Both the position numbers and the translations under genes were made by a program. Below are positions 3,989 to 45,497 of a stretch of 64,000 nucleotides of DNA, in pieces; positions within the stretch are counted from its first letter, which is position 1; the number at the start of each line of letters is the position of its first letter. Origin of the DNA: Chlorobiaceae bacterium (GTDB lineage: Bacteria; Bacteroidota; Ignavibacteria; UBA10030; SZUA-254). The stretch is taken from the NCBI GenBank assembly GCA_013824245.1, contig PNNN01000065.1:62001-126000 (forward strand). The letters run 5' to 3'. The notes below the pieces were generated by a model. That model made no database searches. It was not told the origin of the DNA and worked only from the letters and a program-made list of their open reading frames with translations.

Positions 3989-4074
3989 TGCTGAAGGTGG
4001 GAGTTGAACCCACACCCGGGGTAAGCCGGACTGGATTTTGAGTCCAGCGCGTCTGCCAGTTCCGCCACTTCAGC
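3989..4074 (-). tRNA. tRNA-Leu (CAA)
   Basis: On the minus strand the 7-bp acceptor GCTGAAG/CTTCAGC closes a class II tRNA of 86 nt with a long variable arm, D-arm sequence TGGCGGAACTGGCAGACGCG and T-arm GTTCAACTC. The anticodon stem CTGGA/TCCAG holds the loop CTCAAAA, giving anticodon CAA. The 3' CCA is not encoded (ACA follows), so a CCA-adding enzyme is needed. Confidence 0.95.
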
Positions 4075-4287: not shown

Positions 4288-5199
4288 ATGTCGACATCAA
4301 CAAAGTGGTTTTTAATTATTATAGGTTTTCTTTTTGCTTTCGGATTTGGAGTTATGCTCCTTATCTATTTTTCATTAAATGGAATTTCAAATTACGATGA
4401 TGAAATCGTTGTAGGCAGGGGAGAAAAAATTGCGGTCATAGAATTGAAAGGAATAATTCTAACCTCAGAAGACATTGTAAGGCAGTTTAAAAAATTCAGA
4501 GATGATCGTTCAGTAAAAGGAATATTATTTCGTGTCGATTCACCGGGCGGAGGTGTGGTTGCAAGCCAAGAAATGTATCAGGAAGTGAAAGCAACGCGTG
4601 AAAATAGTAAACCGGTTGTCGTATCAATGGGTTCACTTGCAGCCAGCGGCGGTTATTATGTTTCGTGTCCTGCAAATACAATAGTTGCAAATCCCGGAAC
4701 ATTGACCGGCAGCATCGGTGTGATATCACAGTTCATGGAGTACGATTCTTTACTGGGGAAAATCGGTGTTGGCGTTAATACAATCAAAAGTGGTAAATTC
4801 AAAGATGCAGGAAATCCATTTCGTAAAATGACAGTAGACGATAGAAAATATTTCCAAAATCTGATGGATGATGTTCATCTACAGTTCATCGATGCTGTTC
4901 AGGAAGAACGAAAGATTCCGCACGACTCTCTCATCGCATATGCAGATGGACGAGTGTTCACTGGTGAACAAGCATTAAGGATGGGTTTGGTAGACACGCT
5001 GGGAACTTATGAGGACGCAATAAAGATAACGGCAAAATTAGCCGGCATAAAAGGGGAACCATCGATTGTGAAAGAACGAAAACGTGGCATGACTCTCATT
5101 GATTACCTCCTTGGGAATAAACTTGAAGATATCTTAGGTTTAAAAGAAAAATTATTGGAACAACCGATATTGCAATACAGGATGTTGCATGGATTTTAA
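4288..5199 (+). CDS. sppA: Signal peptide peptidase SppA (short form)
   Basis: 303 residues: an N-terminal membrane anchor (about 7-30), then a single S49 peptidase domain. Visible motifs are 'FRVDSPGGGVVAS' (82-93), 'GSLAASGGYYVS' with nucleophile Ser120, 'GTLTGSIGVI' (137-146) and 'KSGKFKDAGNPFR', which carries the general-base lysine (K170 or K172). The family cleaves remnant signal peptides in the cytoplasmic membrane using a Ser/Lys dyad. Length matches the Gram-positive-type single-domain form rather than the double-length E. coli form. It has its own promoter, and HU begins 53 bp after its stop. Confidence 0.92.
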   Translation: MSTSTKWFLIIIGFLFAFGFGVMLLIYFSLNGISNYDDEIVVGRGEKIAVIELKGIILTSEDIVRQFKKFRDDRSVKGILFRVDSPGGGVVASQEMYQEVKATRENSKPVVVSMGSLAASGGYYVSCPANTIVANPGTLTGSIGVISQFMEYDSLLGKIGVGVNTIKSGKFKDAGNPFRKMTVDDRKYFQNLMDDVHLQFIDAVQEERKIPHDSLIAYADGRVFTGEQALRMGLVDTLGTYEDAIKITAKLAGIKGEPSIVKERKRGMTLIDYLLGNKLEDILGLKEKLLEQPILQYRMLHGF

Positions 5200-5252: not shown

Positions 5253-5561
5253 TTGACCAAAGCAGACATAGTAGATCATATCGCTTCCGGAACCGGTTTA
5301 ACGAAAGTTGAAACAGAGGCTGTGGTTGATGGGTTTATTCAAACTGTCATTGAAGCGCTTAAGGATGGGAAAAATATTGAGATCCGTGGATTTGGAAGTT
5401 TTAAAACAAAAAAAAGAAAAGGCAGAATCGCCCGGAATCCGCGTACTGGCGCCCAAGTTCAAGTGGATGAACATTTTGTGCCATTCTTCAAAGTGTCAAA
5501 AGAATTAAAAGGCGTTGTCAACGACAATTTAAAGAAAAAACAATTTCCAACATCTCTCTGA
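5253..5561 (+). CDS. HU/IHF-family nucleoid DNA-binding protein
   Basis: A 102-residue protein. The frame extends to a GTG at 5220, but AAAGGAGA at 5239-5246 sits just before a TTG at 5253, which gives the normal HU N-terminus (TKADIVDHIASGTGLTK). The family signature 'GFGSFKTKKRKGRIARNPRTG' is intact and contains the proline-tipped DNA-bending arm (RNP). It binds DNA as a dimer and organises the nucleoid. The C-terminus has a short basic tail (KKKQFP). It is followed by a tiny basic protein gene, an arrangement that fits Bacteroidota-like genomes. Confidence 0.93.
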   Translation: MTKADIVDHIASGTGLTKVETEAVVDGFIQTVIEALKDGKNIEIRGFGSFKTKKRKGRIARNPRTGAQVQVDEHFVPFFKVSKELKGVVNDNLKKKQFPTSL

Positions 5562-5615
5562 CATTTTTTTAAAAAAAGAATAACAATCAAATAACTAAAA
5601 ATAAAAAGGAGCCAT

Positions 5616-5711
5616 ATGCCAAGTGGTAAAAAACGCTTGCGAAGGAAGATGGCGACACATAAACGTAAAAAGCGTTTAAGAAAAAGCAGACACAAGAAGA
5701 AAAATCGATAA
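5616..5711 (+). CDS. 31-residue Lys/Arg-rich protein, possible ribosomal protein bL38-like
   Basis: ATG at 5616 with AGGAG five bases upstream; stop TAA at 5709-5711. Eighteen of 31 residues are Lys or Arg, plus two His, beginning MPSGKKRLRRK. Proteins starting MPSGKK and containing THKRKKR occur widely in Bacteroidota beside the HU gene and are usually missed or called hypothetical. The cryo-EM structure of the Flavobacterium ribosome revealed a small extra protein, bL38; this could be its equivalent, but I cannot confirm the sequence match here. An rRNA-binding role is the natural reading of such composition. The perfect hairpin at 5721-5747 follows its stop. Confidence 0.7.
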   Translation: MPSGKKRLRRKMATHKRKKRLRKSRHKKKNR

Positions 5712-5720
5712 TCGTCGCTT

Positions 5721-5747
5721 CTCCCCGTATTAATATGATACGGGGAG
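5721..5747 (+). terminator. Strong hairpin, probable terminator
   Basis: CTCCCCGTAT (5721-5730) and ATACGGGGAG (5738-5747) form a perfect 10-bp stem with a 7-nt loop. The downstream tract is only moderately T-rich, so termination or 3'-end protection are both possible. Confidence 0.6.
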
Positions 5748-5792
5748 ATATTCCTTCCAATTTAATACGATATTTCAGAAAGAATTTGAATC

Positions 5793-7310
5793 ATGTACAA
5801 ACAGAAACTTAGTGTTTATCTGCTGACTGCATTTTTAATGTTAACAGGTTTTACTTCACTTTACTGCCAACCAAAAACTATTACAATTATTCACACAAAC
5901 GATATACATGCTGCTTTTTTGCCGCATGAAGCTGGATGGGTTCGCTCAGATCCGAAACCATTTGTCGGAGGCTTTGCGGAATTGGGTTATTTGATCGATA
6001 GCATCCGTAATGCAAAAAATAATACGCTTGTTGTTGATGGCGGTGACGTAATGACCGGAAATCCAATTGCTGAGTTGGATTATAAGGGCGCACTGGGTGG
6101 TGCATTATTCGAAATGATGAATATGATGGGATACGAAGCGTGGACTATCGGTAATCACGATTTAGATATTTCTCAAAGCAATCTTAAACGACTTACAGAA
6201 TTAGCTGAGTTCCCAACAATAAGTGCCAACCTCGTAGATTCATCAGATAAATTCCCATTCAACAACAAAGAATATATCATCGTTAATAAAAACGGAATTA
6301 GAATCGGCATAATCGGAATCATGTCGAAAAGTCTATTTGAATTGACAAATACAAATAATCTTCGCGGTATCAAACTGCTTCCTCCGATAGAAACGCTGCA
6401 AAAAGTGATAGATAAGATAGATTCGGAAACAGACTTGATAATTGCAATAACTCATCAGGGGGTTGATGAAGATTCAATTATGGCTACTAAGATTCATGAT
6501 CTTGATGTGATCATCGGTGCTCATAGCCACACTCGCTTAAAAACTCCCAAAAATGTTAATGGAATTATTATTGCACAAACCGGGGCAAACGCCGAAAATC
6601 TTGGTGAATTAGAACTGAACGTTGAAAATGATCAAGTCGTTTCCTCAAATGGGAAATTGCACAATCTTTGGCAAAGATCGGAATATCCTCAAAATAAGTT
6701 AACGAATTTTATCAAACAGTGGAAAGATAAAATAGAAAAAGATTATAATACGGTTATTGGAAAAGCTGAAAAAGATATTAAACGATCTCGCAACGGTGAG
6801 AGTGCAATAGGTCATTTTATTGCAGATGCTATCCGTGATGAGACATCAGCCGACATTGCGATTACAAACAGCAGTGGAATAAGAAAAGATATTTTGGCAG
6901 GCGATATTAAAAAAGTAGATTTGTTTGAAGTCGCTCCTTTCAGAAATTATCTTTGTACCTTTCCGATGAAAGGATCAGAGGTCAGGGCTCTTGTTGAAAG
7001 ATATGTTCAAGGTATTAACCATGGGAGAACATCGATTGACATATCTGGTATTGATTGTTCATGGAAAAGGGAAAATGGATCTGTAGTTCTTAAGTCAATA
7101 ATAATTAATGGATCAGACTTAGAAGACTCTAAAGTATACCAGTGTGGGACAATCGATTATGTTGTCAACCAAGCCGAGCGTTATTTAGAGTTTATACCCG
7201 TGGATGTTATAAATGGGGAAGTGCTTTTATACGATGCGCTTGTAAAAAAAGTATCGAAAGAAAAAATCATAAATAGTACAATAGAAAATCGATTTAAAGA
7301 AATTCAATAG
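5793..7310 (+). CDS. 5'-nucleotidase/UshA-family metallophosphoesterase
   Basis: 505 residues with a signal peptide (to about residue 25, mature N-terminus probably QPKTIT). The metallophosphatase domain shows HTNDIH, 'VVDGGDVMTG', 'GNHDLD', 'ITHQG' and 'GAHSHT', the metal-binding and catalytic set of the UshA/5'-nucleotidase family. The C-terminal 5'-nucleotidase domain follows (about 320-500), including 'ADIAITNSSGIRKDI' and 'VAPFRNYLC'. It would hydrolyse extracellular nucleotides or UDP-sugars in the periplasm for salvage. Substrate preference cannot be read from sequence. The P-loop gene starts 10 bp after its stop, so the two are probably co-transcribed. Confidence 0.88.
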   Translation: MYKQKLSVYLLTAFLMLTGFTSLYCQPKTITIIHTNDIHAAFLPHEAGWVRSDPKPFVGGFAELGYLIDSIRNAKNNTLVVDGGDVMTGNPIAELDYKGALGGALFEMMNMMGYEAWTIGNHDLDISQSNLKRLTELAEFPTISANLVDSSDKFPFNNKEYIIVNKNGIRIGIIGIMSKSLFELTNTNNLRGIKLLPPIETLQKVIDKIDSETDLIIAITHQGVDEDSIMATKIHDLDVIIGAHSHTRLKTPKNVNGIIIAQTGANAENLGELELNVENDQVVSSNGKLHNLWQRSEYPQNKLTNFIKQWKDKIEKDYNTVIGKAEKDIKRSRNGESAIGHFIADAIRDETSADIAITNSSGIRKDILAGDIKKVDLFEVAPFRNYLCTFPMKGSEVRALVERYVQGINHGRTSIDISGIDCSWKRENGSVVLKSIIINGSDLEDSKVYQCGTIDYVVNQAERYLEFIPVDVINGEVLLYDALVKKVSKEKIINSTIENRFKEIQ

Positions 7311-31037: not shown

Positions 31038-31111
31038 GGGCGATTAGCTCAGTTGGTTGGAGCGCACGGTTCACATCCGTGAGGTCATAGGTTCAAGTCC
31101 TATATCGCCCA
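31038..31111 (+). tRNA. tRNA-Val (CAC)
   Basis: 74-nt tRNA with acceptor GGGCGAT/ATCGCCC plus discriminator A, D-arm AGCTCAGTTGGTTGGAGC, anticodon stem CACGG/CCGTG with loop TTCACAT (anticodon CAC), T-arm GTTCAAGTC. CCA not encoded (ACA follows). Confidence 0.95.
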
Positions 31112-45424: not shown

Positions 45425-45497
45425 GGACAGGTAGCTCAGTTGGTAGAGCAACGGCCTGAAAAGCCGTGTGTCGCCAGTTCAATTCTGGCCCTGTCCA
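45425..45497 (+). tRNA. tRNA-Phe (GAA)
   Basis: 73-nt tRNA with acceptor GGACAGG/CCTGTCC, anticodon stem ACGGC/GCCGT with loop CTGAAAA (anticodon GAA), T-arm GTTCAATTC. CCA not encoded. A bidirectional terminator follows immediately. Confidence 0.96.

Follow-up and report, generated by a model that had tools for sequence, protein, structure and literature searches.

Directly behind the gene for an HU-type DNA-binding protein, the 64,000-nucleotide stretch of DNA analysed here (the window) carries a very short and very basic open reading frame, which raises the question of whether this frame is a gene and, if so, what its product does. The frame runs from an ATG start to a TAA stop on the forward strand and specifies 31 residues, MPSGKKRLRRKMATHKRKKRLRKSRHKKKNR, a short peptide of low complexity in which lysine and arginine make up 58%. 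In a script count over the window, this share was the highest among 519 open reading frames of 25–60 amino acids, the runner-up reaching 32%. The frame and the other features of the window that are considered here are as follows:

5616–5711, + strand: coding sequence assigned to ribosomal protein bS22 from PDB matches and conservation, 31 amino acids plus stop
5606–5611, + strand: Shine-Dalgarno-like motif AAGGAG, at a spacing of 4 nt from the bS22 ATG
5253–5561, + strand: gene for an HU-type DNA-binding protein, TTG start (Pfam PF00216, E = 9.4e-31)
5720–5748, + strand: 13-pair, terminator-like hairpin just 3′ of the bS22 stop (z = −5.5)
4288–5199: S49 peptidase gene, upstream of HU
5793–7310: 5′-nucleotidase gene, downstream of bS22
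3989–4074, − strand: tRNA gene (Rfam)
31038–31111, + strand: tRNA gene (Rfam)
45425–45497, + strand: tRNA gene (Rfam)

The HU stop codon and the ATG of the short frame are separated by 54 nt, and we infer that the two genes are co-transcribed in the window. The ribosome site mentioned in a preliminary description of this DNA is indeed present as the AAGGAG motif, and the stretch that contains it, aaaaaggagccat, also occurs in a genome of the same genus (L002). The hairpin that follows the stop codon is probably a transcription terminator, since hairpins stand at the same spot in L002 and L031 (z = −5.3 and −3.7) and the one in L031 is followed by a T run. The HU gene itself starts with TTG (5253–5255) behind a GGAG-type site, and L002 and L031 share both this start codon and this site.

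A phmmer search of the PDB with the window protein returned three sequences, 9i5v_10 (E = 8.2e-8), 7jil_5 (E = 3.9e-7) and 8fmw_V (E = 1.6e-4). With a profile, the E values for these sequences lay between 7e-15 and 1e-12, figures that are partly circular as all three are members of the profile. Ungapped alignments of the window protein to 9i5v_10, 7jil_5 and 8fmw_V each outscored all 2000 composition shuffles. A bS22 protein of this type would be expected to be helical and to have about 28–35 residues, over half of them lysine or arginine; the window protein, with its 31 residues, has the corresponding composition, and its predicted model consists of one helix (residues 5–29, mean pLDDT 88) and no strand. 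We are highly confident that the product of the open reading frame is a bS22 of the Bacteroidota/spirochaete type, and the 31-residue gene is an ordinary ribosomal protein gene of the kind known from Flavobacterium and Borrelia ribosomes. The rRNA-binding type of composition that had been claimed for the peptide agrees with a small basic protein of ribosomal kind, akin to chains of solved ribosomes; by analogy with these, it would bind rRNA. A Foldseek search with the model gave no match in the PDB, a result that is hardly informative at 31 residues, and one degenerate pattern, which more divergent forms would escape, found no viral bS22 in viral_contigs.

Of the 296 phylum genomes searched, 288 gave a match to bS22 at E ≤ 0.01; these represent 138 of 139 genera, and the gene is nearly always present in single copy. 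The true peptide matched all 61 phylum genomes used for a control, and a composition-preserving shuffle of it matched none of them. Among 44 distinct bS22 coding sequences, the mean pairwise differences at codon positions 1, 2 and 3 were 4.7, 1.9 and 15.7 of 29 codons, with 13.9 synonymous codon differences per pair against 2.7 non-synonymous ones; six loci missed by the script pattern (L003, which has a GTG start, and the more divergent L046–L050) were left out of this count. The gene is under purifying selection. The variant found in the window occurs in eight named loci, all in metagenome genomes, six of them titled Ignavibacteria, Ignavibacteriae or Ignavibacteriales and two Bacteroidota or Bacteroidetes.

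A chance or non-coding basic reading frame might well look like this one in being short and low in complexity. It would not be expected to persist in 288 of 296 genomes, to lose all its matches upon shuffling, to accumulate an excess of synonymous changes or to have a ribosome site, and we consider such an origin vanishingly improbable. The reading frame, its conservation, the codon pattern and the shuffle control confirm as a real gene the basic 31-residue protein beside HU that had been proposed from the window. That its position next to HU recurs in Bacteroidota, as had also been proposed, is borne out by 42 of 50 bS22 loci with an HU gene upstream on the same strand and within 1.3 kb, in a non-random sample made up of the 30 best loci of a genome search, the eight named loci and 12 loci hand-picked from other families. 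Two of the other loci have less than 400 nt of upstream DNA, and six have no HU in the 1.5 kb available; among the 12 loci from other families, HU lies upstream in seven. Such linkage, combined with the strong positive charge, could suggest that the peptide works with HU as a nucleoid-associated or DNA-binding protein and has no part in the ribosome. However, gene linkage is no proof of a common task, and the nearest relatives of the peptide are chains of solved ribosomes, bS22 being modelled in the 30S subunit, which makes a role as partner of HU extremely unlikely. HU and bS22 are directly adjacent in both genomes of the window's genus; many relatives have another gene in between. A variable gene of about 200–290 amino acids lies between HU and bS22 in L013, L018, L021 and L022. 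On the 3′ side, 13 of the 50 loci (L018, L022 and L042 among them) have an RNase G-like gene, a neighbour that could point to a possible link of bS22 to 16S rRNA maturation.

The remaining alternative concerns the name of the protein. The preliminary description had suggested bL38. That protein belongs to the 50S subunit and lies near H95, the helix of the sarcin-ricin loop. The PDB does list the matched Flavobacterium sequence under the name ‘50S ribosomal protein L38’, but also under a second one, ‘30S ribosomal protein S22’. According to PMC10618245, Borrelia bS22 resembles Flavobacterium bS22, and Flavobacterium bS22 and bL38 are two proteins, bL38 being a separate component of the 50S subunit at 23S helix H95 with a similar location in Borrelia and Flavobacterium. 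The comparison made in that paper also implies β-strands in Flavobacterium bL38, whereas the model of the window protein is predicted to be a single helix. We prefer the name S22 over L38 because the Borrelia homologue is named bS22, because the paper separates bL38 from it and because of the predicted helix. On these grounds bL38 was set aside as very unlikely, and the identity suggested earlier is most likely wrong; bS22 is most likely the right name, with bL38 set apart by its published description and not by alignment.

This correction of the name is one gain of the analysis. No model in Pfam-A or NCBIfam matched the window protein up to an E value of 10. Borrelia bS22 and the common form of this phylum had no match in Pfam-A or NCBIfam either, and the Flavobacterium sequence had none in NCBIfam, the sequences tried, including that of the window, being three in Pfam and four in NCBIfam. 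As a positive control, M. smegmatis bS22 matched both actinobacterial models, PF08213 and NF047430 (‘30S ribosomal protein bS22’), whose curated cut-offs the window protein does not reach; a search of the window's own genome with PF08213 found nothing. Since the bS22 of this phylum is unmatched by the copies of Pfam and NCBIfam tried, a pipeline relying solely on such models would leave it unnamed. Certain relatives do carry an annotation, as seen from 9i5v_10, which is named ‘AURKAIP1/COX24 domain-containing protein’ in the PDB.

A role for the protein can be proposed from papers on other ribosomes, from which we infer the 30S location, the contacts and the function of bS22 in the organism of the window. 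By this analogy, bS22 would form a bent, basic helix inside the 30S subunit, buried between h2, h27, h44 and h45 and close to the decoding centre. When the subunits join, it would touch 23S rRNA, the contact being to H68 in Borrelia and to H67 in C. acnes, and it may thus serve both as rRNA glue and as an extra inter-subunit bridge that steadies the upper part of h44. The published accounts place Borrelia bS22 in a 30S pocket formed by the 16S rRNA helices h2, h27, h44 and h45, where it meets H68 (PMC10618245), and report that C. acnes bS22 forms a new inter-subunit bridge (PMC10085706) and that yeast mS38, which is likened to bS22, stabilises h44 (PMC6582356). PMC10085706 further reports that both bacterial growth and cell-free translation are inhibited when bS22 is added, an activity that might reflect a second role of the protein. 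The protein of M. smegmatis likewise lies near the decoding centre and is termed Mycobacteria-specific in PMC6133939, a label that our data do not support for the bS22 family as a whole.

Some lineages of the phylum have no match to the gene. In the eight of 296 genomes without a match, the profile found nothing at E ≤ 10 in seven and had a best E value of 1.07 in one. Within one family (f30), 80 of 92 genomes match bS22; seven of the 12 misses belong to a single genus (g90), in which five of 12 genomes have a match and seven have none, and the other five misses are genomes that are 57–86% complete. In the order that contains genome G147, 81 of 99 genomes match, and 17 of the 18 misses belong to family f40, which comprises G147 and its relatives and whose high GC and size might hint at kinship with Salinibacter. 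Only three of the 20 genomes of f40 match, all in genus g172, and 12 of its 17 misses are at least 90% complete.

The HU locus of g90 allows the change to be followed directly. HU and a convergent downstream gene are kept in all eight g90 genomes examined, and the distance between the two is 291–395 bases in the five genomes with bS22 (L071 and L108–L111) compared to 105–181 bases in the three without it (L074, L104 and L105). The locus shows that bS22 has been lost from behind HU in these three genomes. In the best tree of HU and the downstream protein for the eight genomes, the three that lack bS22 do not form one clade; a single origin of the loss is compatible with the tree. Two lineages appear to have lost bS22, one of them from its position behind HU. 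Given the absence of a match in eight of 296 genomes and in most members of two lineages, bS22 is not indispensable in the phylum. We lean towards regarding it as a near-universal yet dispensable 30S protein that some members of one genus have lost by deletion behind HU and that most of another family lack. If true, the lineages without bS22 would be natural knock-outs, in which it can be asked what bS22 adds to the ribosome. The titles and abstract openings that were searched mention no such loss of bS22, which is not proof of its absence from print.

A full 16S rRNA was found in five of 16 genomes, three without and two with bS22. Among these five g90 sequences, eight of 1543 alignment columns separate genomes with bS22 from those without, and two of the eight lie beyond the start of h44; other positions of h44 vary without separating the two groups. 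The stretches corresponding to h27 and h45 are identical by eye in the five genomes, and no change in them tracks the loss, given the helix limits assumed for h27, h44 and h45. A script applied to the RNase G neighbourhood of the eight non-matching genomes and of four others taken for comparison detected HU at none of the 12 loci. The idea that loss of bS22 tracks an acidic (salt-in) proteome was dropped, as the ratio of D+E over K+R on stretches of 12–20 kb from 18 loci gave no clear difference; this count is crude and unreliable at high GC, where wrong-strand reading frames were probably picked.

Comparison with known systems places the window protein at different distances from its counterparts. 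Mitochondrial mS38 (AURKAIP1/COX24) and eukaryotic eL41 occupy a place equivalent to that of bS22 according to PMC10618245, PMC10085706 and PMC6582356, and neither gave a PDB sequence match with the window protein or its profile. The actinobacterial bS22 proteins of M. smegmatis and C. acnes, at 33 amino acids, are similar to the window protein in length and charge and sit in the same 30S pocket according to PMC10618245 and PMC10085706. Both are identical to it at 10 of 31 positions, but 66 of 2000 shuffles score as well in the case of M. smegmatis and 54 of 2000 in that of C. acnes, and hhalign gives a probability of 7.8% for window-type against actinobacterial bS22. Homology to the actinobacterial proteins is thus not borne out by sequence alone, the similarity being hardly above that due to composition.

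The bS22 of Borrelia burgdorferi (8FMW chain V) comes from another phylum, and its gene starts with GUG according to PMC10618245, whereas the window gene starts with ATG. Its chain is three residues shorter than the window protein, with which it shares 18 of 28 residues in an ungapped alignment, including the THKRKK core, and none of 2000 shuffles scored as well. Closer still is 7JIL chain 5, which, following PMC10618245, we take to be the bS22 of Flavobacterium johnsoniae. The ungapped alignment has 23 of 30 residues identical, with differences at positions 8, 10, 12, 21, 23, 24 and 30, and again no shuffle among 2000 was as good; the window protein is one residue longer. Locus L042 encodes the 30 residues of this chain letter for letter. 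By eye it has no Shine-Dalgarno-like site, in contrast to the window gene, but HU lies just upstream, as it does in the window.
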